A stretch of 64,000 bases of DNA from Sipunculus nudus (lineage: Eukaryota; Annelida; Sipuncula; Golfingiida; Sipunculidae): the NCBI GenBank assembly GCA_026874595.1, contig CM049308.1, positions 18,474,001-18,538,000 on the forward strand, written 5' to 3'. The notes below the pieces were generated by a model that was not told where the DNA came from, did not search any database, and saw nothing but the letters and a program-made list of their open reading frames with translations. Below are positions 1,448 through 55,500 of this stretch, in pieces (positions within the stretch are counted from its first letter, which is position 1; each line of letters starts with the position of its first letter). Made by a program: the position numbers and the translations under genes.

Positions 1448-1555
1448 CTGATCTGATCATGCTTGGCCTCGCTACACATGAACCTAACTTCACAATCATC
1501 AGAGAAGAGTTCAAACCCAACCAGCCAAGACCATGTGAAATCTGTGGGCAGCTAG
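1448..1555 (+). CDS. XRN2: XRN2 exon a: post-DAD catalytic segment and start of zinc knuckle
   Basis: The acceptor is ...TTGATTGTAG and the donor GTAAGC. It enters with two bases of an Ala codon (phase 1) and reads [20 protein letters not shown], then [15 protein letters not shown]. The Asp of ADLI is the second Asp of the XRN DAD active-site pair; the first Asp belongs to the upstream exon. The first two cysteines of the CCHC knuckle are here. Confidence 0.96.
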
Positions 1556-28577: not shown

Positions 28578-31500
28578 AACATGTTATCATAATTTGTTTA
28601 GTTCCAAAAACTAAGAGCACCATGAGTAAGGCAGTTGTTACAACCAGTGAACCTACCAGTGTATTTTAGGTCTCTCTGCTCTGATGTCCGTCACCCAGCT
28701 TGCAACATGCGGGTTTTAGTCTGTATGGAAAACAAAGTGAGGGTTTGATAAGGACAGAGGGATGCAAAACAAAAGTACTTGAAGAACATCATCCAGGCTG
28801 GGGTACCGGTATATCGGAAAGAGTTGTGATCTGAATGAATTAGCTGATTTTGGAGTGAATAAGGGTTTTTGTACAACCAGCTCCAAATCGCCAAATTATA
28901 ATAGGGTGTATACAATTTCATGACCAGTGCATACTGAATACAGCATTTACATTATGACCAAGGATATATACATATATATTTTTGTTCTATATTTTAGTGG
29001 CAGCTTAGGTAATCAACCAAACCAGTTTAACAACAGAGGTGGCGGTCCTCCGTCACTGATGTCACAACAATTCTCAAGACCTGGAAGCCAGGGAGGAAGA
29101 GGTATGAATTTTTATAACTATCATTAACCTTACTTAAAATCATGAATATTCATGATCATTGACTAAACAAGTTTGAAAGACAAGAGAGCGTCAGAGGTAT
29201 GAATATTTATAAATATGTTGAACCGTTATGTTCAAATTGTTGACTAACATTATTAATGATCATCAGCATACTGCCAATTCTGGCATAGTTCAAATAGTTC
29301 TTGGTAGATGGTGCTGCAAACACCCCTTCCTAAAAAATATAAAAATATTAGGGGGAAATATTTGAAATGACACCCCCCCCCTTAGGACACATTTTGCATT
29401 ACTCCTGTCAATTCAAGACCAAAAAGTGGTATTTCCAACGCTTGATCACAGAAGAGTTGTGTGACAAAGTACAGTGTTACCACAGTCAATTATCATATTG
29501 ATTATGAAAATATGACTTTTAACATGGAAGACAAGGTAGCTGTGGGAAAAGATTTATTAATATTAATAATGATAAATAAATTTATATCTTGTAAATGTAA
29601 GACATTCGTCAACAGATAGATGTTTCTCACGCACCCCCCACATCAAACATTTTTTATTCCCTAGGTGTCACGTGGTAATCTGGTGACCTGCTTGATCCCT
29701 ATGCTTAAAAAAGTTAAAACTCCTGCGTCGGTCAGTTTCCCTCTGACTGATACTTGGGCCATATTTACCAATGAGTATACTTCAAAATATGATAATTCCT
29801 CTAAAACTTTGACCAATTAGACCTGTACATCATTTATAATTATCTCATATTTCTGTCTTTATGGACTATTTTCTCTAACAGCTGCTATGCTCAGTTTCTA
29901 TATGTAAACTAATCATTGTAAAAATAATCACTTAGAAACTGTCTAATTTTTGTGTGAAAGAATTCAAATCTAAAATTTAGTCCCACAAGGAGAAACTGTT
30001 TGCATATTTTACTTTTATGATTCCTGACTGTTCAGTGAGATTAAACATAACTGCCATCACGGCCCATCGGCAAATATCGTGTTCCAAATGAACTTTCATT
30101 ATACTTCTTTTGCAATTAAATTTTAAATAAGAAATATCAACAATGGTTATATAAGAATTAGAGAAATTTCTATTGTGTTTCTTTATAAACGATCTCAGAT
30201 CTTGTTTTAACAACGCATGACCATAATGTATTTTGATTGGGAATCCCCCATGTCATGGCCATTGGTGGGGCTGCGTGTTTCAGTGCTAATAGTGACATTT
30301 TGACACCCAAAGTATAATATAATCTGCTTTGTATGTTAATATTACACATAAAAGAAATAAAAATTTCACATATTTCGAAATTCCTTTCAAACTTTTGACA
30401 AATTTGACCTATAAATGGTTTATTGTCTCATATTTTAATCATTACTTGTCATTTCTATGCCAGTGCCTGACAAATAATTTATGATATTTTACGCTATTTT
30501 CACAGTAAAAAAAAAAAATAAAAGCCACCCAGATCATTTTCTGAAAAAAGTGCCTGAGAAACAGTTTTTTGGAGCCTAATGTTTGGAGGCCAGTGTCTAC
30601 TGCCATCTAGTGGCAGGAATAGATACTACATCACACTGTCATAGTAGACATTATTCTGGTGCTGTTTGTATGGTGCATTGTAGCCTTATTCTGAAGCTAG
30701 TCAAATGGCTGTAGTGACTCATTTTCCATGCTTAAAATACGGAATGTAAGATTATAAACTTTTTGAGGGGGGTTCCTTAAACTGGAGGAGCTACAGGATC
30801 TGTATATGTGTATTTTCCGCTCATCTGGCCATAGCCCGCTCAGCTGATGCCATGGTGATATAGCACCTGCACTGTTCATCTGCCATCCACAGTTCTCAAA
30901 CCCTGCTTCAAGTTTATTTTTTGACCGTTTTTATTTTGTCTGTTTTATCAGATAGAACTCATTGAAACTGTTGCATAGAATTTAAAATTCATGAATTAAG
31001 CAGATTTATTTTAATTTGTTCCAAATCACAGAAAAAATGCTGCTTCTCCATTATTTTGATTTAGTTTATCTAATATTGATAAGATGCTGCCTTCTATATA
31101 GAATTTTTAACCTGCAGGTGGGGCATCCTGAGACACAAACAACTGCTGTAATGAAATATATATTACATGCACTTCAGTGAAAATTGTATATGTCACAGGA
31201 GCTCTGGATGAGCACAATGTCATTATGGGGGGAGACATAGTGTTTGGTATGTCTGCTGCAGTGCCCGTTGTCTTCATCTTGTTATTTCTTGTGATTAAGA
31301 CTCAACATTTCTATATGAAATTTCAAATTTAAATTGTTTCTAGCAAAATCTTGTACGAGTTTGAATACTGGTGACCTTGACCTTTACAATCATGGTCAAA
31401 TAGGCCCAAATAAAAATTTTCTGTGAACCCCATAACTTTAGAAGTATAGCATATTTTTTTCCTCAACTTTCAAACACAAATTGTTTCAAACATGTTCTTT

Positions 31501-34500
31501 GAAGAGTTTGAAAACTGGTGACATTGACATGGATCTTCAAGGCCAAATTATCAAGAATATAAATTATTTGTGAACACATAACTTTTGAACCACTCTGTAT
31601 ATTTTCATGAAATTTGAAATTTAAATTGTTTCTACCAATATATCAAGTTTGAGAATTGATGACCCTGACCTTCATCGTCAAAATCAAATAGGTCAAAATA
31701 GAATTTTTTTTAACCCAATCACTTTTTAAGTATTACATATTGTTTCCTCCAGAATATAAATTATTTGTGAACACATAACGTTTAAACCACTGTATATTTT
31801 CATGAAATTTGAAACACTCATTGTTTCAACCAAGTTCTTTGTAGAGTTAAAAAAAAAAAAAGTGTCCTTGACCTTTATCTTCAATATCACATCCACCAAA
31901 ATAGAAATTATTTGTGAATGCTGTGACACTTGAATTAGTCTGTAATTTTTCCCTCAAATTTGGGGATGGGAGGCCAATAGGTAGGGGAGACATATCATTC
32001 TATTTATATGTTCTGGTTTTATGAACTGCTGTGGGTGGGTGCTGACCTCTGGTGGGGAGATTTGGCTCTATTAGGGAATGCTGTCAAGGAAGTATTCATC
32101 ATACTTCAGAAATGATACATGTTTATATTTAATTTTTTTATCAGTTTAGCAGAGCTAACCCTTAAGAGCATGTGAATTTGTATAAGTGTTTCTTTATGCT
32201 GTATTTGCCAAACGTATATGTATACTATGACACCCTGCTGTGTCAAAATACACCAGTTTTTGCAGCATTAGACATGATACCTTACTGAAGAAGTTTCCTC
32301 ATAAGTAAAGTGCCAAAAACTGTTTTTTATTTATGATTATCATCTTACAGTTTGCTTCAGATATAATTCATTTATTCAATCCAATCAGTTCCAGATTACC
32401 TCACCTGAAAAGTCATTCAAATGATATAAAAGAAATAAGGGAATAGCATACATATGCCATATATTCATTCAATTGAAATTGTATTTTACAAAGGAGGCCT
32501 GCAAAATCACTCTTTTTAAAAGTTTTTTCTTTGAGGATTTCCAGAAAATGACACTAATTTCTCTATTTTCACTCTTTTTTCAGCAGCACTCTTTTTTTTT
32601 GGTGAAAGAATTCCGATATATACTATTTCTCTCCTGCTTTAATAGTGCAGTTATAGCAATAATGAGACAGTTCACAATTTGAAAATGCCCTAATCTTTAT
32701 CCGGAGGATTTACGCCAATTATGTTTCTGGATTTGGGAACGATATGCTTAAATATATGTATACACAACTGTGGTATGTGAAGCACATCTTTATTCATTTT
32801 GTGATAAAAAATTGGGAATAGCTGGTAATTTTACTATTTTTTCACTCCTTATTTCAAAGAAGTCTACTCTTTTTTTCTGGAACACTTACTCTTTTTTTGG
32901 TGATTTACCCTTGGCAGGCCTGCAAAGATTGAAACTTTGTTGGATTTTTTTTTTTAAAGTGAGCTTGACAAAAATTCAACCTTCATTAAGTTGTATATTA
33001 ATATATATGTAGTTGTATAGGAACCAGCTAAAGGGTATCTTACACTAGTAAATGTGAAGTAAAGGGAAGGAAATATCTTGTCCAAGCTTATATGTATTCA
33101 AATATTGGCAAACTTCTTTTTGTTGTACAAAACAGTTTTCATTCAATTCATCAAGTGTATTTGAAATCCTAAGTGAGACCTTAAAGTTACTCAGTCATCA
33201 TTATATGTAATGTTTTCCAATTTTATCAGTAATGTAAAAGTCAAATTAACAGTATTTGAATAGCTGCCAATTGAGTCCCCCGGAGAACTATACTAAGGGA
33301 AAATAGTCACCAAAACAAAGTAATTACCAAAATTATTATGTGTTTAATCCTTTTTACTTAACATGGAAAATCAAGGTAACAGTGGTTGATAAGTGAATAT
33401 TTATGTTCATGAATGAATACAGTTTAACAGTTTACAATTAAAAATATATGACCCAGAGTCCAGACATAAAGTTCCAAGGAACCTAAAAAATTTCCCTTTT
33501 TTTCATGACTTTGACGTCAGTTCTGCACAGCAGGGAGCGACTTTGACAGCATGTCTCCATTAAATATTCTGCCATAAGGAAGGATTTCTCTGAAGGAAAC
33601 ATTATCTAAATTTATTAAATGTACATAAAATGTTCCACATGTCCTGTTATGTGCTGAGTATGCATATACCATATATGAGTAACAAGTACAAGATATATAT
33701 GTTTTACCTATGCACTAAGTTAAGCAGGGATGCTGTTTTTGCTTGCTTTTCTGTGTGCATGTGTCTCAGTGAATGTGTATGTTTGTGTCGGTGTCTGTGT
33801 GTCCAAGTTTGTATTTATATGTGTGCGGCCTTGAATTTATTTGTTTTTATGTTTTTGGCCCAGTTTGTGTTTTTCTGTGTGCCCTGTTCGTGTGTGTCTG
33901 TTGTGTTTACGTGTGTGGGTCTATGTGTGTTCTTGTTTCTATCTGTTTTTCTGTATGTGCCCATATGTGTCTGCATTTGTTTGTGTGTGTTTTTTTCTAT
34001 GTCCATGTTTATGTCTGTGGTTGTTTCAGTAAAGAATTTAAAACATTGTATTAATGGAACTTGAAACATTGACTTGAAGTTTAAAAATTTAGAACAGGTT
34101 AACACGTGCATAAATCAACTGTTACTAGGCCTGTTTGTAACTATGTGTTATTACTGCCATGTATGAACTGCCCCATATAGTCATACAGTCAACGCAGTCA
34201 AACTGAAGCACAGTAAGACACAGAGACTGTTGTTCAGCTCTTAAATTAAATATACACAATTTTAAAATTAATGTTAGTTGTAGGGAAGTGATTAAGATAT
34301 TACACTTCAGAACTGAAGATCTTTGGTTTGGTCCGTGCCAGAGTGTCAAAAGCACAGTGATGAAATAACAATACAAAAATCAGAGAATCTGTATGTGTCA
34401 TAATGATTTAAAGATAAGTCTTACCTGTGCATATAATATCTTGAATATAGAAGGCTTTATTATTATACAGCATTTCTATCATGTGGTACCGTTCATCCTT

Positions 34501-37500
34501 ATTCAGCAGAGTGCGCCACCCATATGTCATGGGCTGTACCTTAGCACATTCACTACATTCATTCTTAACTAATGGCTTCTTAACTTATTGTTAGCCTTCC
34601 CACCAAGAAGTTGTACATATAAATGACACATGATCAGTTTATGTTTTTATAAAAAAAAACATACTTTTTCTGCATTGGTTTATTTTTTCACCCTGGAGTT
34701 ACAGCAAGATGAAATAAATTATGAATCGTCTGAATTTCTGATATTACCTATAGAATTATATCTAAAATATTTGCTTCAGAGGTAATATAACTACTTGATA
34801 TAATATATTTTTTTTTTAATTATAATTAAAAGCTGTACAGGAGTATTTGATTCAAATCAGATTGATATAATTGAGCCTATTGTATTTGTAAAGGAATACA
34901 GAGAGTTAATATTATTGGCCCAAAATGGGGAGGGGGAGGGTGTTAAGTGAGTCACAGCCCAGTTTGTGCTTCCACATAAAGCAGTGAGTTTTATCTCCGT
35001 GCCTCGGAGTGCAGGGAAACAAGGCTTTTTGTTATTAGGGATACTTATCTCACATAACTGTCCATCCCTTATGGCCCTTTTCCAGGCTGTATTTATCAAG
35101 ACCAGATGAGAAATAAATTTACAAGGAAGACCATGCATAGTTGCTCAGAGCATCGAGAGGGTATGTAAATTAATGACGGAGTCATTACCCAGATATTATG
35201 AGAGAGAGGCCGCTTGTGTTTGCCTAGTCCCGGTTGTAACACTGCAGGCATCTGTGCCTTTCTCACCGACATCGTCAAATCCATCTATGTTTATGGCTGA
35301 TTTGCAAACCAGCTTTAATCATTAGTTTTATTTGACGCTGTATGTGCACATAACCTCTGCTTGTTTCAGAGTAATACTTCAGCCCTCACGATTGTTTGTC
35401 ATTTGATCTCAGTTATGTAAAATATATGCACAGATTCTTGAATTTTTTCAAACATTTGGGTTTATAGCACATTAATAAACCTCCGCATGCTTGGAAGGCC
35501 AGTTTGTTTAGGTATTGGACTATGTTGAGTTGAAGGTCCCCTGTTCAGGCCACCCAAAAACCAAAGATTTAAAAAATATTTCCTAATAAAACAGATATTC
35601 TCTTCAAGGTCTCATCATGATTCTTCCTGGGTAGGTACATTGAAAATTGATATTACAAAGTTCTCAGCAAATGCATCCAAGCACATGGACCAACTATCTC
35701 AAATTCACCGGCTTTATACATTTTGGCTCCTTGAATTTGTAAGCACAGTCTTTTTATACGCCTGTCATATGACGGGAGTATTTTGGTATACCCACTGTCC
35801 GTCCGTTCGTCCATTAACTTTTAGTGTCGCTGGGATAACTAACCGGGCTTTGATGGACTTTCACCAAACTCACCATATAACTGCTTACCAACAGATTATC
35901 TTGCCCAAGTCCAATTATGGGCAAAATCCACGCATATTTAATAAGGTCACGTGTCACTAGGCTTCTTTGTGGTGTCCCCGCAATAACTTACGAAGAATAT
36001 GAAGGATTTGACTAAAACTCATCTGAAATGTTAACCAATAAAATATCTCACCTAATTGTGATTTCCAGCAAAATCCCTGCATATTTAATGAGGTCAGAGG
36101 TCACCACACTTTGGAGGCACCAATTGAATTAAACAAAAATCCTGTGGATTTTCATGAAACTTGTACATATTTACCAATAGTTTCTCACTTCAATTAAATT
36201 CCTCAGCAGATTTAACGCATATTTGATGAGGTCAGAGGTCACAAGACATAAGATGGGCGTATTATGCACATTTGCGGTGCTCTTGTTTATGTTTTGCATC
36301 ACTTGTCATGCAAGCTCATTTGCATTATTGTATAGGATTATGCAAATGATTTTGATAACGAAATATTGGCAGTTGCCAAGATATTTTCTGGAGGAAACCC
36401 TGTACCTCATGTTTAATAAACATACATGATTTGTGAATAGGTCCCTTTTTAAAGAACATACTCTTATCATGAGGTTACCAATATCCTGTTTATATGACAG
36501 CACCATCTACAGGCTGTGGGTCTGTTTAAAAAAATAAAATCAAATAAAACTACCGTACTGAGACTGAAAGATCATGTGTTACACTGAGCACACCTTATAT
36601 TGGGGTGGGGTGGGGGACATGTGCACTAGACGTTAGATTAGCCTCTTGTTTAAACAAATCTGGCAAGCTTCGTGCATAGACCTACCAGGTGCATAGAGTC
36701 ATAACTGTTAAATATAAAAACTTCCCAAAGTGTTTCAGCCAGATGAGAACACAAAATCAGGTACCAGAGTGTGAAAACATGTAGTTTGACAAGCCAGCGT
36801 GGCTGTCCTCGTAGTGGGGTCTCCGTTTAGGTTACCATATGTTACATATGTCAAGACTTGACGTTTGAGTGTGAATTGGCCACTGCTGACGATTCACGTT
36901 TGCGGTGTCTGTTGATGTGATCCTGTCCTTCAGCAAAAGGGGACTTCTATTTCGTACTGATCCGCTAAAGTGCCAATAGTCACATGCTTGAGGGATAAAT
37001 CACAACATATGTTTTTCACCCTAACGAACATATCTCCAGCTCTGCTGCACTTGCGACTTTGCCGGGAGGTTGGCTCGGGCTGTTAAATGGAGAGGTTCAT
37101 GATCGCAGTACAGATTGTCTACACATTAAAATCGTGTGCTTAAGATAAAGTCACATCAGCTCTCGACAGGACACTTTGGCTTTGCTTGAGTATTATTATA
37201 TCCCTGAGTAGATTGTTCTCTTGGATTAACTTCTCTTAATCTTCTCTTACATAGCTTCAGTTGGCTCATTATACTGGACAAATCATATCATATTACATAC
37301 TGCACCCAGTAGCTGTCTCTCAGTGTTTGTTCAGGCTAATGGTTAAATATTTAGAAGTCTTTGTTGTTGATTATTTTTCATTAACCATTTAAACTCACGT
37401 ACACACAGACAACAGTGTCTTAAAGTAGAAAAAAAAAACTGAAATTTAGTTCAGATGATAACAGACCTGTATTTAAAGAGATCTAGATATCCTGCTCATG

Positions 37501-37523
37501 TTTAATATGTTTTACAGAAATGC

Positions 37524-37573
<50 letters not shown>

Positions 37574-40500
37574 GTTAATTACAGACTCTTGAATTAAAAA
37601 AAATAGTATCTGTATTTTGTCATATGGAATTTAGAAAAAAAATCAAATTATTTTTTTATTCATTTATGCGCTTTTAAAGTTTTTAAAAAAATGTGAAATG
37701 ATTTGGTTTTACCAGTTAATTGTAAATAAAGGTAAGAAACATGCAAGATGCATTCTGTGCAATTTTTTTTTTAAGGAAATGTTTCTTTGTATGCTTGTCA
37801 ATAAGACTTATAAAAGAAAATAATCATAATTATCAGATATTCCGAATTAATAATGCCTTAAGATTATTGAAATTTTATCTTCAAAATAATATTATGTATA
37901 ATTATGTATATCATAATTTCAACGTATAGAATATTGAAATTTATATTGTAATTATTTTATAATAATGTCATAATGATGATTAAAAATCTTACACTTATTA
38001 TAAATATTGTATTTTGCACCAGAAGAATAAAGTCAATTAGTTTTAATGTATCAAAAGACAGCATATTTATCAACAGTATTTAAACAACCTCTCTGAATAT
38101 GAAGTAGAACTTAGAAACACAAAGCCAGCAAGAACCAGCAAGTTCACTCACAACGTTTGTTGAAGAGTCAGAGAATAAATGAATTATCTGCAAAAAAGTG
38201 TTGACAAGGTCGTGTAATTGCACTTTGGTCAACAGTGATTGGGTATGGTTGCTACCCATGGGGAACATTTTCGTCAGTAGAAGAGGGTATCGGTACCAGT
38301 AAGTGTTCTCCGTCTGCGACCGGTTGGTTAGACAAACAGCACCTGGAACATGAAGAGAGTGTTAATCAGCGCGGGTTGCTAGTCTCTTGTCAGTTTAGAT
38401 GTTCCCGCTGTCTTCAGCCTCACCTCTCCGTCTCGTGAGTGTCCGACGGGGCAGGGAGGGGGGCCCGTGTGTTGGCCGCTGCTACAATTCCGGTGACGTC
38501 AAGTGTGTTTGTGCCCCCCTACCAAAGCGCAGATGGTTTCATTGAAAACTGACCTCACAACCCCATTAGTTCTTAAACAATTACGAGTGGTTTCTCCAAT
38601 TTTGCTAGGGTGACACTAGTGCAAATGTTGACTGTATCTTTGATGGTCTGTTAAATTCAAGTTTTGCCGACTTTGCCTAGGTGTATAGGGAGGGATATTG
38701 GTGGGATACAACTCACAATAAATATCACTATCTGTTGTCAGATTCAGAAGATGTTCAGTGTATAGCTCAATATTTCAAAATTTGCCAGGAAAAAATTTAC
38801 ATGGTATGTAAATATTAATTAAGCTTTTAATATATCATATTCATAAAGAATCTTATATATTTTTCATTGAAATGGGTTTATAATTGCAGACATACAGATT
38901 ATTCATACATTTAGAAGATATCACACTTTTTTTCTGACAGCAACAAAAAATAAGAGAGAAATAACAGAACACAAAGAGAACATTAATGCAATACCCATAT
39001 ATGGATATCCCTCAGTATAAATACAGTGAAATAAAAAAAATATGGATTTGGTATGATATTGGTACACAGTACAACCAGATTCCAGCACTGTAGATGTCAC
39101 ACATTTTATCAGCAAAAGTAACCTTTATATGTGCTCAAAATTATGAACTGTTTATTTTTTTTTAAATATAATAAACTTCTTATAGTTTATTAGAGCAAAT
39201 CTGCATAAATTTTGTGCAAAGTAAGGGTCAAGTATATGCTATTTGCTAAAATAGGGTTGAACCATGTAGAAAATAACAAGAGATATAAAATAATTTCTTT
39301 TACTTTTTTGAGGTGCAGAATTTTGAGATTTTGACTTGTATCTCTTTAGGATGAGATACAGCTGGTAACAGCTTATGAATTTAATCAAATTGGAGGACTT
39401 TTGGATGTATGTGGGAAAAAGATTAGAACTGGAGCTTTCTGTGGTTGTTCAAATGGGATCTGCAAATGAGAGGATCGATGGATCAATCAGAATTAAAGAT
39501 GGAAAGTGTGAAAGTTCATTAAATCTGTGAACAAGCTACTAGAAGGAGACAGAAATCTCCCCCAGTGTGGAGCAGGAAGGAGGGTTGTTTGCTTGAGAAA
39601 ATAAGGCAGGGCAGGCCATTGTGAGATGTGCCAGTCTCTCAGTAGCTAAATTGATTACTCGCTGGTTCAGATGCTACAGATAGCAACAAATTAACGTTGC
39701 TAAGAAGTCCCAAATCAAATGTAGCCCATCTCCGACATCCTCAGACCTGTCAGTCAACGAGATGGTGAAACATTTCATCAATGATCCTGAACCCAGATTC
39801 CTACTTTCAGGTCGCGTTATCTGGTCAGACCTGCTAATGAAGGCCTTTTAATTAAGCGGCAGATTGCCATGGACAATAACAAGGTATTATTAGTGAGTAT
39901 TAGTGTGAAGAGGAATGTTCACTCACCTTAAGCTCAGAGTTTACACCTGAGGTGTGATTTGTTAGTTTTCCAGCTTTTACACTTAAAACTCTTCTAAGCA
40001 GATCAACACTAATGGTCCCTAAATAAGATTACATCACCGGGATATTTAAGAGTAAGAGTACCAGAATTTTGATGAGGAACTCTCTTTGTTGATCTATTGG
40101 TCAGAACTGAGCCCTTGTGAATAGCGGCCCCACCTGGAGCACAATTGATACTTTCTGGTTTTTACAGGTGTTCTCTGCTCTGGAGGCAATACTTGGAATT
40201 AGTTAGGTAACCACACTAGGGATTAGCTTGGATAAGGGGTTTGGAGAATTTCAATGACATGTGATGGAATTTAATAGGTTTAAAAAGTAAATTCAATGTT
40301 TTAATCCATCTTTGATAAGACAAATGTAATCCAAAATATCATCAGGAAGTGAAGGTGTTTTTTTTTTACAGAAAATTCATTGATTCCCTTTCAAAAGTGA
40401 ATTTTATTGGTGATCATTTCCAGTTATTTTGTGAAACCATGATGAGACAGAAGTTAAACCTAAAAGGTTTATTTTTATCTGAATCAAAATTTCAGTCAGC

Positions 40501-43500
40501 CAGTTGAAATATGTCTTGTTAACAAAAGTAAATATTAAAGAGAGAGGGAACGGGGAGAGAAGGACAAAGCCCTAGACAAACTGAGACACAGACAGAATAG
40601 AGAGCCAGAGAGAGAGAGAGAGACAGATAAACAGAGAAAGAGATACAGAGGAAAACAGACAGACCTGTAGACAAACTCAGGAATAGAGAAAAGGCAAAGA
40701 AAGGCAGAGCTTGATCTAGACAAAACTAAAGAAAGAGAAAAAGAGGTAGACAATCAGACAGAAAAATTGAGAGAGAGAGAGAGGGTCACAGCAAGTGGAA
40801 GAAAAAAAAACGAGACAGCTTTGACTGTGTGTTTCTAGGCTACACCTAAGTGTTGTGTATTTTGTGACCATGTATTTCCCATCATCCTTTGCACAGAGGT
40901 CAGGTCACCTCGCAATTGTGTACACAGGTTCTTTTTTTTTGTTTTAGATAGCGATGCCACTTCAGCCCAGCTCTAGTGGCACTAAGTGTAATTTTATATG
41001 TGTCTCGTGACTTTTAGAGCAGCTTGCCGGGTAACTCAGTATGTTAAAGAGGCCTCAATTTTCACAGTCGCCAAGAGTGATATAAATTACAACGAAGCAT
41101 TCCAGTGACATATATTTTTAAAAAATTATAATTATTAAACATTTATGGTAGATATTTTATTATATATGTGTGGTATTTTATTTTGTGTTTATGGTAAGTG
41201 GAGGTAATTAATCAATCAGTTCGCTGGATGGGTTTTGATAAGGAGAAAATTAGGGTGAGCTCAGGTGCACTGGATGGAGTGTCATTTGAGAGGTGTGACC
41301 ACAAAGTCTGTACCCTTGATAGGGGTACGGTTAATGTTGTGAGCTAGAAGTACCAGGTATTTTATGTGCACAAGTAGATCTGAAAGAACGAGAGAGAGGG
41401 CCACAGGGAGTGTAAAATGACCATTTTATGGTAATTTAACACTTTTATGAATTCTTATTTGAATTTATTCTGTGGTAAAAGATGGCACAAATTACAGTGA
41501 AGGTACTCTTACATGTCAATAAAAATAAACCTGATTCAAGTGTAATGTTAATGTTCAGTCAGATAATTTCCATCACACTCTAGGATATATTTTCTTGTAT
41601 GAACTGATTATCAGTGGTGTTTCCACTTTTAACTCAGTTCACTTTGAAAATTGAAATTTAACAGTAGAACTTTTTACTGGTAAAACCTTTCATACTGGGA
41701 ACACCTCTCAGTTAAGGACAAGTACTATTCATGCATAGTTGCATACCTTTCAAGTATGATGGAGACCTCCAAATTTTGGCCACTATTGAATTATGAATCT
41801 TGTGGATTGTGGTTTACAGAAATTTTTATCAATTTGGATTTTTATAATTTTAACTAGTTCCATCAGGATCCATATAGCAAATTAATAAAAAAAATACTGA
41901 CTATAGTTTACAGTAAGTAATAATTGACTGAATACCAGAACTCGATTTCAGTTTACAGTCATATGTTAAATAGGTTCCTATCATAGTGATAGCTGAACTG
42001 AAGGGTACTCTTCAGGTATTTAATAACATTGTAAGGAGCAATACAAGTCAGTTATATTTGGTTTACATCATTGTATGACAGAAGTAGGCTAAAAATGAGA
42101 GGCACATGGAGAAAAAGCAGGAATAGTCAACCAGCGAGAATCGAGGACTCGTGATGTGATCCTCTGAAGAGTGTACAGCCATTCACAATCCCTTCACACT
42201 TTGAGGTCATTACTTCTATGATTAATGGTACAAAATAAATCTGTGTGTGTGTATTCTGAATGTCTTAACCTGTGGAATAACAAGCACTTGTTTTTCAGGG
42301 TACAATACAACGTAACACAGATTGACTGATGTGTTCTATATTAAACAGTATTAATCTCCATGTGTGTAGTATGATTGTCTTCACCTGTTGCATTGAGAGC
42401 ACTTGCATCACACTTTCAGGGTACACTACAACCAGATACAGTATGACTGATTTGTGAGAAATGATACAGTATCCTGATATAATTTGAGGATGTGGGCATG
42501 GTCAGAAAAAAATGTTATTCCTCTCTAAACTTGCCAGTACACATCCCCTTGCCACCAAACACTCTCTGCGGTTGGGTTTCTGCCTGCCTGGATACTGTCC
42601 TCTTTTCACATCACATCCCCATCACCCTTTTCAAACTCTTACAAGTTATCTCAGTTTCTCAAAACCACTTATTAGGGTTGCTATTTTGCATACACACTCA
42701 AACCAAGATGTCACAGATGGCAAGTCAGAATTATTGGTATACTGCTAGTATACTTTGTCTGTGTGTGTATATTATAATTAGTTTGAGCCATCAAGACTAG
42801 ATATATTCCATCTTCAGGGCAGAATACCACCTGACAGTAGCTTTTGACAAATCTATGACAAGCGATACAATATTAACCTGTATATATGTTTAACATATGA
42901 GTATGTATTATGAATATCCCAACCTCTGGCATGAAGAGCACTTGAATTATGCCTTCAGGGAATAACACAACCTGACATCCTGCCTCATAATCTGTGTGTA
43001 TTGAATGATAAAATTTTAACCTGTGCATGTGTATTTTGGAAGTCTTAACATGTGGCATTAAGAGCACTTCTTTTATGCCTTCAGGGCATATTACAACCTG
43101 CCACCTGTTTCATGTACCAGCTAACAGATTTTGTATGTTTACCCAGAGTCATACACCATATATGCCAGTAGTACAGTTGTGTTGAACACACAGCAAGGCT
43201 AAACTTCAGTGATCATAGTTTAATCTGTTCAACCTTCTGTATAATCTCATTAAATGCAACATTACCTGGCCAGACATTCTGTCTGCCAATAAAGCTTACT
43301 CAGCAGGGGGTTTAAGTCTCAGGATATATTTTTTATCAGTATGGATGTACTGTGTGGCATAATGGTAGTCTGTTTGAATCTTTGTATCTCGCAAATAGCC
43401 AAATGCTCTGTAATCCTGTGTGATCTTGCCGGAGGATTATTCAGGGATTAGTGTAGGGGGCTTGTCTCATGCTAAGTGCCTACTATATAAATCTCTTAGG

Positions 43501-46500
43501 CAGCTTTTAAAGACTATCTCTTGACAATTTATTATAATTTTATGATATGTTGTTACAGGTAACATAACATTTTTTTTTCTTTAATTTTCATGATGCCATG
43601 GTATTTTTCTATCCTAAGGTTTTCTGGTCATTCTATGAATGTTGAGACTTTTCTGAAGAAAAACATTTCTGGTTAGAATTATTCTTGAAGATTTATAAGT
43701 GTTCATGTTAAGATTTTGTAGGATGAAACCATCTTGGCAGACCTTAGATTATGACTCGGGTGTTATTTAATATTTCATAATTAAACATTACCTGAAAATG
43801 GTTAATGTTTCATAAATGTTCATTTCAACATACACAAAATATATAGATTTAATATGTAAATTAAAGAGAGTTCAACATGTAATTACTGACAGTGAATATG
43901 ATAGCCTAAAGGAGTGTAAATTCCTTTCTGCTTTAGACATTAATAAAGTACACATCTACCAGTCTATTTGATAAATGCCTCTACGCAGGTGTCCAGGCAC
44001 TTCTGAAGTAGTGAAGCGAGGGGACCAGTAAGGTTGCGGGGTGAGGTAAAACAGGAAAATCAACAGAGGATGGCTGACACGTTTGTTTAGTAGTTGACCT
44101 GCCCCTTTGTTTCATGCTGCGTTATCACTGCCTTTCATATGGCTCAGTGTAGCTTGTATTTTCATACAGAGGTCGCGTCGCTACCCTCCACCCAAACCCA
44201 CTCCCCACGACAACATTTGTCACTTATGTGTGATCTAATTCTAATCATGGTCACCGTAAATCTCACTTTTTACGGCTCCTGACACATTAAACAGAAGCAT
44301 GGTGGACGGTGTGTCTTTAAAACCTGTCGCACCATATCACTGGACCTCTTTCCTGTATGTTTTTGGTATGCGGCAGGCCAGAGGGTTGCGGTTGAAGCCC
44401 CATCATCTGTTATTGATATACTTGCTGTCATAAATTTCAACCTTCGTTTGATGTTAGGTGTTATTTTACAGAAGACCTTTTTGCCCCTGGTGTGGTTTAC
44501 CTGCACTTTGCATGCTAATCATGGAAACAAATTACAACGAACTCATTGTGACCTATAATAGGGACACTTATATTTGTTTAATGTTTACATTTTGTTTCTA
44601 AAGTCACTGTGTGCTTGGAACTATCTCCAGTATCAGATCTTGTTAGAACAATGAAACTGTCATTATCACATCCAGGTTTGGTCTAAACTATGATCTTTAG
44701 GTAATTTTCTGAATTCTGTATTTAGTTTAAAGGTGTTAAATTTAGCCACAAAATTCTGAAGTTATTAAATTGCAGGGCTGCACTGGTCTTTGTACAGATA
44801 TAACGAATCTTGTGACAGGATAGTGCTTAAAAAAACACAGAAGTTTCTTGACAGTTACTAAAAAAAATAATGAATAATATATTAATTGTTACATTCTTTT
44901 CTTCTTCCTCATTCAGTACTCAATTATGGAGAGTAATTTGATTAATCTTTAATGTAAACTTGTTCAGAGAGAAGTTTTGATTTTGACGCATCACCCTGAG
45001 TAACCAGCCCATTACAATGTACAGAAATATGTATACATGTATGTCCTTATTCTTCACTGTACACAACTTTTCACAGAAATCAGTGTCCATTAATTATAAA
45101 AGATTCATTTATATATGATAAGGTGTTAATAAAGAGATTAACATGGATAATAGGGGTCATCTAGCAAAATTATGGGCTGAATAAAAATTAAACAAAAAAA
45201 TTAACCAGATGATTGTTATCGGCAAACAATTACTCCCCCCCCCCCCCCCCCCCCCCCCCACAGCTGAGTGATTTTGGGGGATCAGTTATGGATTGTGACT
45301 TTGGAAATTTGTTCAAGGTCAGAAATAAATATAAGGTGCAAATCTGTCACCTATGATTAAAACTGAGCAGAAATGATTTTGAAAATCAGCCATATTTCAG
45401 ATTTAGCCCCAACACGGCCAAAAGAAAAGAAAAAAAAGAAGAAAAAAAATTGTATTTGATGGTTTTCCACTCTGGTTACCCACAATAATATTCTGACCCA
45501 TATATGAAAATAGAAATAAACTCATCCACCCCTATAAGTCTCTCTTCCTGCAAGAGGGGTTTAATTAAGTTACAAAGACATATCATTATGGATACACAAG
45601 AAGCAAAGTTTAAAGTGTTTCAACTGAAAAAAATATGCAGATATGTGTGATGTAAATCTGTTCTAAAATTCAAAACATTTATAACTTGTTAGGTGACTAC
45701 TAGATTCACCAGCAGTCACAGTTGCTCAGACATGACTAACATGGCAAGTACTAAACATAATGTAGTGTACAAAGAAGAGGTGTAATCTTTAGATCACCAT
45801 AACCTAACTGTAAAAGTGAGTGCATATATCCTTGCCTGATCGGAGGCAAGAATGTACATTTCATGTACGGATCTAATACTTCCTGTCTACGACACACAAT
45901 TTTGGATTGCCAGGAGATGGTATCGTAGGAAACACTTATGTCGGCCATGATTAATTTCCTGTTGGGCTGGGCATTTTATCGACACCTATCAGTATATGAA
46001 TGAAGGCAGGTGCTCGAAGCTCCAAGTGACCGAGTCGTTTACAGGGACAGATGGCTTTGCATCCAGGACTAAACAGAGGCTGGCGATTTAATATTTAGCG
46101 GTAGACATGCTTAGGTTGTACTGTAGACGCTATACTGTTAATCCTGTTGTGATACATGGAATTATAAGATCAATTTTGGTATAACATACAGTATGATAGA
46201 CATTGTATCAAACTCACTGAGTTAAATACCCCTCTTATGTCATAATAAGCCATGGTTACTGCAACATTTGATTAAATCATCACCAAATGGTTTGCTTGTG
46301 TTGAACCATGGGTCTGTTGTCAGTTTTACTGTATTGAATATGCCTTGTCCATTAAAAATAACTGCATTTCTGAAATGTTAAATATTTTTTTAGATGTTAC
46401 ATGTAATACTCAGAAAAAGGTTCACTAGCCATCACTTATCAGTTATTAGTAAAGTACACTAGGCAGTGTTTGTCACTAGTAGTGGTAGGTTCAGTGGATA

Positions 46501-49500
46501 GTACCTGTCAGTGGTAAGTTCACTAGGCTGTGGGCCTGTCAGTAGTAGTCAGTGGTAGGTTCGGTAGGCTAGTAGCCTACTAGACTGTGCCTGTCAGTGG
46601 TAGTCAGTGGTAGGTTCATTGGGCTGTGCTTGTCAGTAGTAGTCAGTGGTAGGTTCATTGGGCTGTGCTTGTCAGTAGTAGCCAGTGGTATGTTCACTAG
46701 ACAGTGTCTGTCAGTGGTAGGTTCACCAGGCTGTGCCTGTCAGTATTAGTTAGTGGTAGGTTCACTAGGCTATGCCTGTCAGTAGTAGTCAGTGGTATGT
46801 TACTAGACAGTGCCTGTCAGTAGTAGGTTCACCAGGCTGTGCCTGTCAGTGGTAGTCAGTGGTAGGTTCACTAGACTATGTCTACTAGGCTGTGCCTGTC
46901 AGTAGTAGTCAGTGGTAGGTTCTCTAGGCTGTGCCTGTCAGTAGTAGTCAGTTGTAGGTTCTCTAGGCTGTGCCTGTCAGTAGTCGTCAGTGGTAGGTTT
47001 TTTAGGCTGTGCCTGTCAGTAGTAGTCAGTGGTAGGTTCTCTAGGCTGTGCCTGTCAGTAGTAGTCAGTGGTAGGTTCATTGGGATGTGCTTGTCAGTAG
47101 TAGTCAGTGGTAGGTTCTCTAGGCTATGCCTGTCAGTAGTAGTCACTGGTAGGTTCTCTAGGCTGTGCCTGTCAGTAGTAGTCAGTGGTAGGTTCTCTGG
47201 GCTGTGCCTGTCAGTAGTAGTCAGTGTTAGGTTCTCTAGGCTGTGCCTGTCAGTAGTAGTCAGTGGTAGGTTCATTGGGCTGTGCTTGTCAGTGGTAGGT
47301 TCTCTAGGCTATGCCTGTCAGTAGTAGTCAGTGGTAGGTTCTCTAGGCTGTGCCTGTCAGTAGTAGTCAGTGGTAGGTTCATTGGGCTGTGCTTGTCAGT
47401 AGTAGTCAGTGGTAGGTTCTCTAGGCTATGCCTGTCAGTAGTAGTCAGTGGTAGGTTCTCTAGGCTGTGCCTGTCAGTAGTAGTCAGTGGTAGGTTTTCT
47501 AGGCTGTGCCTGTCAGTAGTAGTCAGTGGTAGGTTCATTGGGCTGTGCCTGTCAGTAGTAGTCAGTGGTAGGTTCTCTAGGCTGTGCCTGTCAGTAGTAG
47601 TCAGTGGTAGGTTCTCTAGGCTGTGCCTGTCAGTAGTAGTCAGTGGTAGGTTCATTGGGCTGTGCCTGTCAGTAGTAGTCAGTGGTAGGTTCTCTAGGCT
47701 GTGCCTGTCAGTAGTAGTCAGTGGTAGGTTCATTGGGCTGTGCTTGTCAGTAGTAGTCAGTGGTAGGTTCTCTAGGCTATGCCTGTCAGTAGTAGTCAGT
47801 GGTAGGTTCTCTAGGCTGTGCCTGTCAGTAGTAGTCAGTGGTAGGTTCTCTAGGCTGTGCCTGTCAGTAGTAGTCAGTGGTAGGTTCATTGGGCTGTGCC
47901 TGTCAGTAGTAGTCAGTGGTAGGTTCTCTAGGCTGTGCCTGTCAGTAGTAGTCAGTGGTAGGTTCTCTAGGCTGTGCCTGTCAGTAGTAGTCAGTGGTAG
48001 GTTCATTGGGCTGTGCCTGTCAGTAGTAGTCAGTGGTATGTTCTCTAGGCTATGCCTGTCAGTAGTAGTCAGTGGAATGTTACTAGACAGTGCCTGTCAG
48101 TAGTAGGTTCACCAGGCTGTGCCTGTCAGTGGTAGTCAGTGGTAGGTTCACTAGAATATGTCTACTAGGCTTTGCCTGTCAGTAGTAGTCAGTGGTAGGT
48201 TCTCTAGGCTGTGCCTGTCAGTAGTAGTCAGTGGTAGGTTCTCTAGGCTGTGCCTGTCAGTAGTAGTCAGTGGTAGGTTCTCTAGGCTGTGCCTGTCAGT
48301 AGTAGTCAGTGGTAGGTTCATTGGGCTGTGCCTGTCAGTAGTAGTCAGTTGTAGGTTCACCAGGCGGTGCCTCTCAGAAGTGGTCACTGGTAGGTTCACC
48401 AGACTGTGCCCGCCAGTAGTGGTCAGTGGTAGGTTCACTAGGCTGTGCCTGACAGTTATAGTCATAGGTAAGTTCACTAGGCTGTGCCTGTCAGTTGTGG
48501 TCAGTTTATGGCAGTTGTAGGTTCACTAGGATGTGCCTGTCAGTTATAGTTTGTAGTAGGTTCACTAGGATGTGCCTGTCTGTAGTAGTCAGAAATAGGT
48601 TCACTAGGCTGTGCTTGTCAGTAGTAGTGCCTTAAGTTCCTAGGGTTGCCTGCCTGTATAAGTTTTATGGTTATCTTTGAATATTATGAAAAACTGGAAT
48701 GAGTTGAAATTTAAGAATAATTTTTTAATAGTTTGAATTTATAATAAAAAAAATTTGTGTATTATACTTTTGACTTGTAAATGAATAGTTGTGAATGAAT
48801 CTAGTGACAATGGTAATATAATATTTACTGTCCTTGAGCCACCTGTCACGTTAATCCTTAGACACAATAGATCAAGTATTCATTCATGAAGGTCAAATTG
48901 CCCCCACTGAACTGTCCACACCACAGATATGCCATGTACCTCTGTGCTGTTTATTCAGAAGCCTTACTATGGTGATCAAATAATTGCCACCAGCTCTCAA
49001 AGAAGGCTCATAGTTACTCACCCTGTTATATTATATCCATTGTATTCAAATATCCATAATTTTAAATCCAAGTGTATGACTGACACTTGACACTGTCCGC
49101 TCCCATTTTAGGTTGTGCTGACCAAGCAGAATAGCAGTACTGACAGAAATAAACAAGCGACAGCAATCATAGGTTCCCGTTTAGTGGCAGCATGTTTGTG
49201 TTGAAGAACATTCACATTCTAATATAAGTGGCTGTATGTAACATGGGATTGTGAATGGCAAGAAGGTTTGCTTGCTATAGTTTACGCTAAGGACCCTTGT
49301 TCACCCCACCCCCCTGACACTGGGTACACACAGTATTAGAGACACCCGTGGGCTATGGGACATTTACTGCTTGTCCTTGCACACAATGCTGTGTTTGCGA
49401 GCCCAATACTGGAAATATTTACTTTTCAGATAGAGACCCTGCAAAGCACAATATCAGCGTTTTGGCCTGTTATATATCAATAGACAGTTATGTCGCAAGC

Positions 49501-52500
49501 AAGCATGTGGAATTCCTCATTGCTTTGATTGACAGGTCTAATCACTGTCGGAGACATGCATCCCAGCCTTGTATTGCTGTTACAATGGCGCCATCTGGTG
49601 TCAGGTACCAAGAAGTACAAGTAGATTTTTTTTCTACATCCGTGAAATAGATCAATGTTTTTCTATCTCAGATTTGTAAACAGTTGTAGAACCAACATAA
49701 GAACCAACATATGGTCAACATAAGAAATGTTGACACACAGGAAGGTGCTGCTGCTACATCGCTTGATAATGATAATGGTGATGATGGCGATGTTTATGAT
49801 GATCACATTAATAAAAGTAGTCAGGTCTAATATGGTCTTTTATTTCATTTCACATTTTCTTATCTCTGCCCTCTGTTTATATGTGTATATAAGTGTATAT
49901 ATTTGTATGTATATATAATGTTTCTATACATATATATATATATATGCAATGTAAAATGTGTCCATTGCTAAAGAAATACTTACTTGTCATGTGAAGGCAT
50001 TAAATATTAAGACGCTTTCACTTTCAGCTAAATGGAATATATACAAGTGTCAACTCAGATTATATATGGCATGATTCATACATATTCCTTATCATAATTT
50101 ATTTTTTTAATTTTATTTTGACCAATTCAGCAGATGTTTTCTGCCAAAGTACATAGATGTTTTGAAGAAGACTTAAGTTCTCTATACATTAATTTCTTTA
50201 TTTCACTGGTGGTTGATATTTCTCATTGAGCTTGTCTTGTTCTTCCCAGTGTTTACAGATAGTCTATCATGTTAACAGATGGTTTATCATGTTTACAGAT
50301 GGTTTATCAGATGCTCTTTCAGTTTTCTTTTGAAAAATCTAGCAGGAGTCTATTGTGAAACTTCACAGTATCCACAAGCATACTCCCGAGTACTACAAGA
50401 ATACTTGGATGACTAAAGCATGCTCAGAGAGGTCTATACTGGAATGAGTAGCCCCCTTGAATGTCGTATAAACCTGAGAACGACTTCCCCCGCAGCCTCT
50501 ACCCCAGCAGCAGAGTCAAGGGCACTCCTGTTTACCCTGTCGCACACTGACGACTTTAGAGACCACTCACAACTAGTAGACAGGCCATCTGATAGCCCGA
50601 GTGCTTTTTCTGCCGATATACTCTCCCTTGGTGTGAAATGCAATAACTGCTCCACCTGAGCAGTATTAATTGGTTAATCTCTCTCTTTAGGGCTTTCTGA
50701 GGGCTGTTCCAATAAAAAGGTACTTCTCTCTTTGGTCTCCTGAAGAGATGGCGCAGATCGACAAGCGTTTACGGGATCAATGGTGTCAAACCAAAGCGTG
50801 ATTTTTACGGTGGATAAACCCAGGCAGATTAGAGTTGGGTTTCTAACCATCAATATCACCGCTAATTGGTTGACATGATAAGCGCAAAATATTTTGCACA
50901 GAATTGAATCCAAGCCATTACCCTCAATGTAACCATTCGTGTGAATAGGCCAAATGGTAACATTTTATTGGGTAATTTGACACCCTGCAGATTTCTTCCG
51001 CAGCTCATGAAAAAAAGCTTGCGTTGCAGTAAAGCCAAAATGATTGAAGCTCCAATCCATATAACCGCAATACAAACAGCCAAAGGGGCAGTGGCAGTTC
51101 CTGGCAGTTTCTCATAAATGCAGTTTCTTCCAAGTCAGCAATGAGAATTCAAAGACAAATTGATACTATTAACAGATTAGCATGTGGGTTTTTACGGAGT
51201 GGCTACAGACAGTCTGTCTAGTGGTGATTTATCGCAAAATCAGAGTTTGTGATATCAGATTTGGAATCAAGTAAGATCACACACTGGTTCAAACAGTGCT
51301 TTACTGTAGAAATGAAATTTATATCATGTCAGACCTTCTTGCTGTTTAGATCCCCATCTTCTTCTCAGTGTTAAATTTGGTTAAAAAATATGCATTGACA
51401 CAAATCCTGTGTATATCATACACTCATTATATTTTTTTTTACGCAGCAGTAATACAGTGCAGTTGTTCCAGATCTCCTTCGCTTGGGCTGGCACAGTGCC
51501 AAACATTGTAATCAGACCAATGAGAACTTTGTATCGCAATGTGCATCAGACCAATGAGAGCAGGGTGTCATGGGATTGAAACTTTTACAGTAAAAAAATC
51601 CAAGCCTGCTTGGAGTTGGATGCACTATGAGATACCACACTATGATTTGTCTTTTTAAAGTTCTTTGCCCTGTGCCAGCCCTGGTGGTGAAACCTGGAAA
51701 ATCTTGCTATACAAAGCAGCAGTTAAAGCGAAGGAGATGAAGAATGACTACGGTTTATAATCGCTGCATGAGAAGTGTGTGTGTGTCATAAGTCCCTATG
51801 TATACATTTAAATGTTAATTAGCACCCTTCATCATTCTGTAAGATGACTGACCTACAATGCGATGTCATTATGCTCCTTCATATCATGTTGTGAATGACA
51901 TGTTATAGATGGCTGTATGATCTCATCTCATCACCACTATAGTCAATCATTGCTGTTCATCCTATTGGTATCTGCATTTGAATTTACATGAACATTCAAT
52001 CAGTTGAAGATGTTCACACTCTACTTCTGACCTATCTGACACATTTCATTATTAACCATATCACTGTTTTCAAGGTATCACAGAGAATCAACTTGAAACA
52101 ATAAACATGCTATTGCTTCAAACAGGAATACAATCAAGAATTTACACATTTAATTTAAGTCCCTTTTTCAGTATGGTATTTACTTAATATTTATGTTATA
52201 AGAAGGCACTTACTTGTAAATAAGTGAAATTAACCTCTGATATAAAATTTATAACAGCATGAGAAAGAAGCTTGCTTATAATGGGAAGACCAAACATGGC
52301 GAGTTTACAAGCTTTGGAACAGAGTCCTGCCATTTCCTCCAAGATGTTCATCTGCAGCAGAAAATGGTTATCCATGATTTCATTGGCCAAATAACCCGAT
52401 TGCCATGGCAACCTGTAAAAAGTATACTGTGGTTGGCTTTATATTAGCGAGGCTGAAATTTCATTTTCGGGATTGCACCAGAACCTCCAAAATCTAAGTG

Positions 52501-55500
52501 CAGCAGGGTCTTAGTTGACGGGGCATCTTATTCCTGAGGGTTTCATATTTGCGATTATTTCACATTTGCGTATATTGCAATATTAAAACTCTTGTGAATA
52601 AAAAGGCAACTACATTAACTCCTCAGTGGTGGTGTCATTTTTTTATGGATGGAATTATATAAAATCCATGTACAGAAAATTATATAATGTATTATAACAT
52701 CAAATATTTTTAAAGTTAACAGGTTAAAAAGTTGTGTTTATTTTGTTTCAGATTCCTACGGTCAGCAGGGAAGACAGGGGAACCAGGGTTCATACAATCA
52801 AGGCAACAGGTAGGAATCTCATGCGACGTACTATTATATGTATATATTGGGTGACAAAATTGTCTTGAGTCAGTTAGTTAAATATCATAAAACATAATTT
52901 CCATTTTTGCCAAAAAAAAGACAATGAATGACACATGGTATATTACCAAAAACAATTGAAATTCCTCCTCATTTGCTGTTTTTTTTTGCAATTTCAACTG
53001 AAGTACACCTGTTTATTTTGGTGTTCACAAGATTAAAAGGCACAACCTACAGCATCATTAGTGCCCTCTGGTGGTGGCTCCTGTGTATAACTTGAATACA
53101 CAAAACTTTCATAGTTTAAAATAATTCATTAATCTCGCAAAATCTAATATGTCCAAAAATGTGTTTTTGATAAGTAGGTGTAGTCTTTTGGGATTTTATT
53201 ACTGTTACTTTAATGAAATAGTTTATAATAATTTATTCAGTATTTCTACCAATGTAAGAATAAAACAAAGTGAATTCTAAGTTAAAGTAGCAGTAGGTCA
53301 ACCGCTGTCAATATATGAACAAGTTTCCTGCCAACTTTTGTGATATCATGATAAGTCTATTATGTCAAGAACATTGCAGATGTGAAAGATCAGCTTTAAA
53401 CTTTCATTTTAGTCTGTCAGTTAAGTATCTATGTAATTTTCTAAAATCAAATCTCCTATATGAAATTCATAAGAATTATATATAGGTGAAATTTCTTTTT
53501 CTTCAAAATTTATTTATAATCAATTGATATAAAAAGACAAGTGTTTCATGTATATAAATCAATACATTACTTATGGTCACTGGAAATAAAAAAATAATGT
53601 TTCAGAAAAAGTATTTCAGCTTTAAACTGTTTATTGTGGTCATTAACATGTCTAAATGATGCATATAAAAGGGTGTTAATTGAAAAGTTATATTTATATG
53701 ATCTCTGCAAATCAGAACATGTTTAAACATAAATTACTGCACTACAGAAAATACCTTTCCAATGCTAGGTCCATGATGCCTGAATTAGGAGTTCCGTCTC
53801 TAATGTTTTCAAGGCCAGATGTTTGTCAATGGCAAGTTTTGGTACCTCTAAGAAAATATTGTTGTGACTTTTGCAGTATAACATCAAGTGCATGCATGAT
53901 CAAGTACTAACACATTAATCTTGGAGTGAACCACTCATTATTAATATTAAGAGAAAAATGTGGCCATTTCAATTGTCCAAATAATTTGTGTATTTTTTGG
54001 TTACCTTTGTTGTTTTTACTGCAAGTTTGCAATTTTGGTTTTGTATACTTAAGGATTAATTTCAGACATATTTTACAGTTATTTTGACAGGTGTTTTGAA
54101 CTAACTTTTAAAGTCCATTATAAATGAGTTAACAATGCAGTATTTGAAGATACAGAATTTAAGATCCATTTAAATTTTGTTTCTTTTTGACTCAAACTAT
54201 CTCATCAGATAAGATAAGCAGTAATTTGGGATAATTCTCATATAATATTCTTTTTCCTGATATGGTAATTCTCAAATTGAATTCTAAAGAGAAGGTGAGA
54301 AAGGTCAGACTTGATATGTTCAGTTTTTCATACCTTATTAAGAAATTTATTATTTGTTACCATTTGAGCAAGTTAAAACTTAAACAGTGTATTTCAAATA
54401 ACTGTAATACTTCTGAATCAAATGTGAATACAGGTCAGCATTAGTGGATGATGAAAAAAATGTGACAGTAGATGATAAAAATAATATATATATCAAAAGT
54501 TGTATTGTAGATGTCTGAGTAACTATTATAGAAAATAGCTCAGAAAATTTATAAAATACATTAAAATGTTTCAGCAGTTGCTGTAGAAATCAAACTAATA
54601 AGCAGTTGCTAGGTAATTGACTAATTGTTCCGCAAAAAGACAATCATCAGTTACTGTGGAGATGATAAAAGAAGCAGATACTGTAAAGTGGCCACTGGGC
54701 ATTATGTCAGTAATATTAAATTTTGGTTTTAAATTAAAATTTCAGGAACCAAGGTAGTTATGGAGGACAGATGGGGTGGCAGCGCAACCTACAGGGACAA
54801 CAGAGTGCTCACCAACAGAATCAGCAGCGAGGCTACCAACAGGATCGCTATGGAAACAACAGAAGTGACAGAGGTTATGGGTCACAGCAGTCGACCTACG
54901 GAGGTCAGGTAGAGAGTTACTCCACCAGCAGCAGGAGTGGGTCCAGTAACTGGTCAAGGTCAGGGGACCAAGGTTATCAGGTAAGCAGTGAAAATGGGAA
55001 AAAAATTTATAAGATAGGCCAGTGGCTTGCTGGTACTTATTAAGCCTTCTTGATTTCAGACACTTTCTTGTTATACACCGCTATATCTCATCCGCTGTTA
55101 CCGCTCTTTCGTGTAGCAAGTTTCTCAGGGTTTTACCACCAGGGCTGGCACAAGGCCAAGAATTGTAATCAGACCAGTGAGAGCGTTGTATTGCCTTGTG
55201 CATCCAACCAGTTAGAGTGGTTAACGCTGGTTTGAAACTTTGAACTGGTTTCAAACCAGTGACACCATGCAATACCCTGCTCTCATCAGTCCTATTACAA
55301 TTCTTGGCTCTGTGCCAGCTTTGGTGCAGAAACTCAGAAAAACATGCTATACAAAGCAGCGGTTAAAGCAAAGGAGATTGGAACAAACACTGTGTGTGTA
55401 AGGAGCGTAGATTTCAGGTTTAGCATTTAGATAGATAGGAATAATCCTGAAGTCATACCCTATAATAACACATTACATTGAATCTCAGAGGTTCTGTTGA

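Follow-up and report, generated by a model that had tools for sequence, protein, structure and literature searches.

The stretch of Sipunculus nudus DNA analysed here, a window of 64,000 nucleotides on contig CM049308.1 (C3:18474001-18538000; numbers without a prefix are positions in this window and negative ones lie upstream of it), carries the 3' part of the gene XRN2, whose tail is interrupted by an intron of 23,650 bp. The next recognised gene, NKX2-1, starts about 70.4 kb beyond the XRN2 stop codon. The initial annotation had read the intron as a block of regulatory islands that serve a neighbouring developmental gene. As regards the intron itself, the evidence tends towards an ordinary one. 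We consider it probable, by a modest degree, that this is an ordinary long tail intron of XRN2 in an ancient pair with NKX2-1, that the regulatory DNA of NKX2-1 lies mostly in the gene desert between the two genes or around NKX2-1 itself, and that the intron holds a few elements at most. Control of NKX2-1 by the intron remains hypothetical.

The intron occupies 29102-52751 on the plus strand, with GT at 29102 and AG ending at 52751. The exon before it (28998-29101, plus strand) was placed by a splice-site scan, its donor and its frame, and the exon after it (52752-52809, plus strand) is followed by a donor GT and continues the same frame. The two exons thus share one frame (GSLGNQ...GSQGGR / DSYGQQ...NQGNR) through the RG/Q-rich tail, and with the GT-AG ends this confirms a 23.65-kb intron between two XRN2 tail exons, as first annotated. 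The RG/Q-rich penultimate exon (54746-54980) and the last coding exon with the stop codon (60890-61024), both on the plus strand, were found by a composition scan and by frame. The joined catalytic exons match 5fir_A, an exoribonuclease 2 homologue that we take to come from C. elegans, at 250.9 and 295.0 bits (E 3.4e-74 and 4.8e-87), while XRN1-type chains score lower (best 145.2 and 167.6 bits), and the Pfam family XRN_M matches the exons with E 3.6e-98. Judged by these matches, the gene is an XRN2/Rat1-type nuclear 5'-3' exoribonuclease, nearer to XRN2/Rat1 than to XRN1. A further set of XRN_N exons on C15 presumably belongs to XRN1.

That the intron is an exception within XRN2 holds only in part. 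It is the longest among the XRN2 introns found, in an exon list that was partly read by eye and has gaps (for example from the last XRN_N exon at C3:18469093 to 2387), and falls short of a complete gene model. The introns between recognised neighbouring exons in the window measure about 0.4 to 5.9 kb, but the last one is itself long (5,909 bp), as is intron 1, which lies outside the window and measures about 13.1 kb (exon 1 at C3:18450041, beginning MGVPAFFRWLSRKYP; next exon starting near C3:18463228). No nested gene or coding exon was recognised in the long intron: no Pfam cut-off was passed by 16 of its 22 frames of at least 85 amino acids, the other six being minisatellite frames. In one intron frame a DUF5715 match of 16.4 bits, under the cut-off of 26.8, was dismissed. 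Rfam gave no family at its gathering score across the window and the sequences L001-L008.

The identity of the neighbour follows from a homeodomain search of the whole genome (1.43 Gb, 153 contigs; best 150 of 321 candidates), which placed a homeodomain at C3:18609536 on the plus strand. By bit score it is nearest to TTF-1/Nkx-2.1 (118.8 bits vs 109.7 for vnd). The upstream exon 1 starts at C3:18605436 with what appears to be the TN-type motif of the NKX2-1 N-terminus. On this sequence evidence, the next recognised gene after XRN2 is the NKX2-1 orthologue. The XRN2 stop codon ends at 61024 (C3:18535024) and NKX2-1 lies downstream on the same strand, so the NKX2-type developmental neighbour that had been predicted from human gene order does exist, well within several hundred kb. 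No gene was recognised between the two: 44 of the 51 intergenic frames of at least 85 amino acids were compared with Pfam and none came over the cut-off, the other seven holding simple-repeat runs, although genes made up entirely of short exons could escape such a scan. Matches to Acyl_transf_3 (18.6 against 31) and TraG_N (15.9 against 36.1) were dismissed. Because XRN2 adjoins NKX2-1 with no other gene recognised in between, it is reasonable to read XRN2 as a bystander gene.

By its gene content the locus conforms to the ancient xrn2-nkx2.1 microsynteny, with xrn2 directly upstream of nkx2.1 and no recognised gene between. This adjacency was already published in 2024: xrn2 stands beside nkx2.1 in all six spiralian genomes analysed and usually in deuterostomes, and xrn2 occurs with nkx2 in two corals (PMC11175523). 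For spiralians the same paper inferred that only xrn2 and nkx2 stay tightly linked and that the rest of the pharyngeal gene cluster mostly remains on the same chromosome. S. nudus agrees, in that NK2.2 and a paired-box gene are on the same chromosome, far off; since the locus matches the spiralian description, it is a further case of a known linkage. Unlike that account, whose section on linkage deals neither with intron content nor with the location of regulatory DNA, the present locus has a measured gap of 70.4 kb and a 23.65-kb tail intron. In the open-licence literature this was the one paper found that treats the linkage.

Two other neighbours named initially, NKX2-2 and PAX1/9, are not close. 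An NK2-type homeodomain at C3:24501077 is nearer to vnd (110.7 vs 103.4 bits) and, taken by this score as NK2.2, lies 5.9 Mb from the XRN2-NKX2-1 pair. On C3 the closest paired box detected lies at 44.80 Mb, about 26 Mb off (14 matches; all 19 candidates scored). By its residues this gene looks PAX1/9-like, but its four matches in a structure library (Pax5, Pax8, Pax6 and paired) did not decide the matter. Within several hundred kb of XRN2 neither NK2.2 nor a paired box was found, although a weak nearby homeobox could escape among the best 150 of 321 candidates. On grounds of distance both genes were rejected as the target of the intron. In human, a deletion listed in a study that itself concerns FOXA2 includes KIZ, XRN2, NKX2-4, NKX2-2 and PAX1 (PMC11220097).

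CpG content sets the intron with the rest of XRN2 and apart from the desert. In a tiling of 168.5 kb the CpG observed/expected ratio is mostly low over XRN2 and mostly high over the desert and NKX2-1. With repeats masked it is 0.348 in the intron (187 CpG in 16,883 bases), 0.334 in the XRN2 span from -15000 to 29101 and 0.296 at 52752-61024, against 0.924 in the desert. Along C3:18450000-18622500 the ratio changes abruptly at about 63.0 kb, some 2 kb downstream of the XRN2 stop, where it rises from about 0.3 to about 1 over a few hundred bases. Gene-body methylation is expected to leave CpG depletion behind, and judging from CpG content the depletion of the intron and of XRN2 is likely such a footprint. 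XRN2 is presumably broadly expressed, which fits its CpG depletion. The pattern resembles gene-body methylation as described for mollusc genes, with a CpG-depleted transcription unit that includes its big intron and a sharp downstream edge; in contrast to that system, methylation would here be deduced from CpG content alone (PMC3840415; PMC2996979).

The word content of the seven islands gives no sign of a regulatory class. They were tested as seven 701-bp pieces at approximate positions against 1000 random sets from the same intron, the minisatellite excluded, with consensus words. The islands had been described as carrying homeodomain, SOX, RUNX and PBX-MEIS-like words, but these classes show no excess (39 seen vs 43.7 +/- 6.7 expected; 766 of 1000 random sets reach 39). 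Homeodomain words number 23 vs 23.6 expected, SOX words 6 vs 9.5 (ACAAWG) and 8 vs 10.0 (AACAAW), RUNX words 3 vs 4.8, PBX-MEIS words 2 vs 1.5 and MEIS words 5 vs 4.2. The further counts are those for NK2 (10 vs 8.3), FOX (11 vs 9.7), GATA (19 vs 17.3), E-box (33 vs 29.4) and TCF (4 vs 8.8), and none of the 11 word types is significantly enriched in the seven islands (lowest value 275 of 1000 random sets). The islands are almost free of masked repeat (641-701 unmasked bases in each 701-bp piece), and the three top CpG peaks of the intron fall on islands. Their CpG observed/expected ratio is 0.42 vs 0.32 unmasked (30 of 1000 random sets), but after masking it is not clearly higher (0.43 vs 0.37; 127 of 1000). 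As a set, the seven islands are not supported.

Repeats account for part of the intron. Dispersed, tandem and simple repeats masked in it come to 6,767 of 23,650 bases, about 29%, as a lower bound. Each genome search scored the best 39-40 of 388 to 12,801 candidates, so that zero matches do not prove a single copy, and the genome-wide repeat search covered the intron apart from 40927-43119, 46401-48659 and 51481-52751. Genome searches identified dispersed repeats at 29637-30579 (longer copies at 75-80% identity), 35747-36296 (many copies at 81-84%), about 36307-36460 and 40537-40808, and at 45235-45564, 49844-49965 and 32483-32936. Local comparison added 31315-31962, pieces of 42214-43113, 51485-51778 and a minisatellite at 46418-48658 with about 53 copies of a 39-bp unit, nearly without CpG. 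This minisatellite is open on both strands, for up to 277 amino acids, because 39 is a multiple of three. The longest stretch of the intron in which no dispersed repeat was detected measures about 4.1 kb (36461-40536, with a TA run at 37518-37576; best 40 of 464 candidates). The single desert control, a 4.6-kb piece, held about 3.7 kb without matches (L005:535-4257), and by this small comparison the repeat-free runs of the intron are therefore not special. In the XRN2 control, 13960-18320, a single mobile element fills about two thirds of the sequence, and its copies reach 97% identity.

A scan from -15000 to 62500 found five stretches that keep CpG, one of which is in the long intron. This one, at 37901-38650 over the 38.3-kb island, has an observed/expected ratio of 0.70 (0.74 in its best 500 bp) and contains the highest CpG peak of the intron (38102-38601), a scan maximum that 62 of 1000 simulations reached. 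No other genomic copy of it was found among the best 40 of 464 candidates, and it is the best candidate for an unmethylated element in the intron. Weaker second and third peaks lie on the 36.8-kb island (36652-37301; peak 36.75-37.25 kb) and the 44.0-kb island (43902-44451; peak 43.95-44.45 kb), each with a z of about 3.0, less than the 3.06 that the simulated maxima average. Outside the intron, repeat by local comparison covers 0 of 950 bases at -1549 to -600, 213 of 1250 at 4151-5400 and 135 of 700 at 6001-6700. Most of the fifth stretch (9051-10750) consists of a young mobile element whose copies are 94-99% identical, so that high CpG can merely reflect recent insertion, and CpG-keeping stretches were rejected as general enhancer marks.

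The window and the genome show some further features. The young mobile element inside XRN2, at about 9148-10373, occurs at no fewer than 39 other places on many chromosomes with 94-99% identity (best 40 of 3709 candidates). A 2.77-kb mobile element lies in XRN2 at about 14130-16896, and nearly complete copies, up to 97% identical, occur elsewhere; 25887-26423 is a recent tandem duplication of two 273-bp copies that match at 99%. The homeodomain search also returned ten strong matches, all on the minus strand, over 2.4 Mb at C12:56362257-58768118, which resemble a very stretched Hox cluster, and eleven matches (51-69 bits; ten on one strand) within 116 kb at C10:12548268-12663901, a possible tandem expansion of a homeobox gene. 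Smaller homeodomain groups are at C11:62.04-62.07 Mb and C6:5.31-5.37 Mb. A search for egg lysin gave no match, which does not by itself speak against an abalone, as control genomes gave none either.

Several observations weigh against an ordinary, uniformly CpG-poor intron beside a CpG-rich desert. Firstly, a 3-kb patch in XRN2 intron 1 (C3:18455001-18458000) has a CpG ratio of 0.94, with 613 of 2999 bases repeat by local comparison, and in the desert 9 of 67 one-kb tiles fall below 0.5. Secondly, masked CpG within the intron is uneven, with a window-to-window variance that none of 1000 simulations reached, and the three highest separate peaks sit on the islands at 38.3, 36.8 and 44.0 kb; the islands had been chosen partly for CpG, which qualifies this coincidence. 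Intron CpG is thus uneven and partly matches the islands first annotated, yet no single peak is secure. Thirdly, G+C is higher in the islands (0.396 vs 0.356, 2 of 1000 random sets; 0.398 vs 0.361 with repeats masked, 3 of 1000), an excess that is partly circular because they had been chosen as complex sequence. Lastly, detected repeats leave the size of the intron largely unaccounted for.

The intron could have no role for NKX2-1 at all, being long through drift and repeat insertion while the pair is kept by chance or by elements elsewhere. We regard this as unlikely. The masked repeat fraction, the young mobile elements in other XRN2 introns and the 13.1-kb first intron speak for it. Against it, no repeat was recognised in about 16.9 kb of the intron, and an adjacency that reaches from corals to spiralians is unlikely to persist by chance, although this does not point to this particular intron.

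It seems slightly more doubtful that NKX2-1 has its chief regulatory territory in the intron, where several of the seven islands would serve as conserved enhancers within the bystander, as was originally suggested. The ancient adjacency to NKX2-1 as the next recognised gene, the length of the intron together with its low share of detected repeat, and the higher G+C and top three CpG peaks on the islands speak in its favour. However, the named words are not enriched in the islands, the overall CpG depletion of the intron matches that of the compared XRN2 span, one desert control holds a comparable repeat-free run, and CpG is also kept elsewhere in XRN2, at least once by a young mobile element. 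In addition, the 70-kb desert would offer enhancers a larger and closer home.

A narrower proposal, which we think improbable, is that 37901-38650, perhaps with the 36.8- and 44.0-kb peaks, is an element left unmethylated in the germ line within the methylated XRN2 body, from where it acts over about 93 kb on NKX2-1. If so, an unmethylated intron element would account for the linkage of XRN2 and NKX2-1 since before the split of cnidarians and bilaterians, and CpG-keeping gaps in methylated neighbour genes would reveal bystander enhancers from a single genome. That the intron instead serves XRN2 itself, through control elements or alternative exons such as further tail exons or a promoter of its own at 37.9-38.65 kb, is very improbable. 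The intron interrupts an RG/Q-rich tail, which could tolerate small cassette exons, and has one local CpG-keeping stretch, but the two intron frames flagged by the composition scan are unconvincing: at 45213-45353 the prolines stem from a run of C, and at 51048-51218 no convincing splice sites were seen by eye.

From the age of the linkage and the bystander model, it is probable that regulatory DNA of NKX2-1, scattered across the region, has kept XRN2 and NKX2-1 together. The intron itself would be mostly ordinary transcribed sequence, partly enlarged by repeats and the minisatellite and depleted in CpG by gene-body methylation, and NKX2-1 enhancers in it, if any, would be local and few, perhaps a single one, with the stretch at 37.9-38.65 kb as the foremost candidate. 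Most of the regulatory DNA is more likely to be found in the 70-kb desert and around NKX2-1. The squid supplies the analogy: a squid study places conserved elements toward distal regions in metazoan microsyntenies, whereas new cephalopod microsyntenies fit intronic, bystander-type regulatory placement better (PMC9023564), and by this analogy regulatory DNA is better sought in the desert. The locus also resembles the genomic regulatory block with a bystander, as set out in the same source, in that an unrelated gene adjoins a developmental transcription factor gene across a gene-poor gap. Such blocks are defined by arrays of conserved noncoding elements, and the likeness here comes from gene identities and layout.

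The section on linkage in the 2024 paper reports xrn2 and nkx2.1 as neighbours without locating the regulatory DNA (PMC11175523). To the question of what holds the two together in animals, the S. nudus locus brings a clean layout, with a CpG-depleted gene (XRN2), a CpG-rich desert and one target, and so separates two predictions, enhancers in the intron of the bystander and enhancers in the desert.

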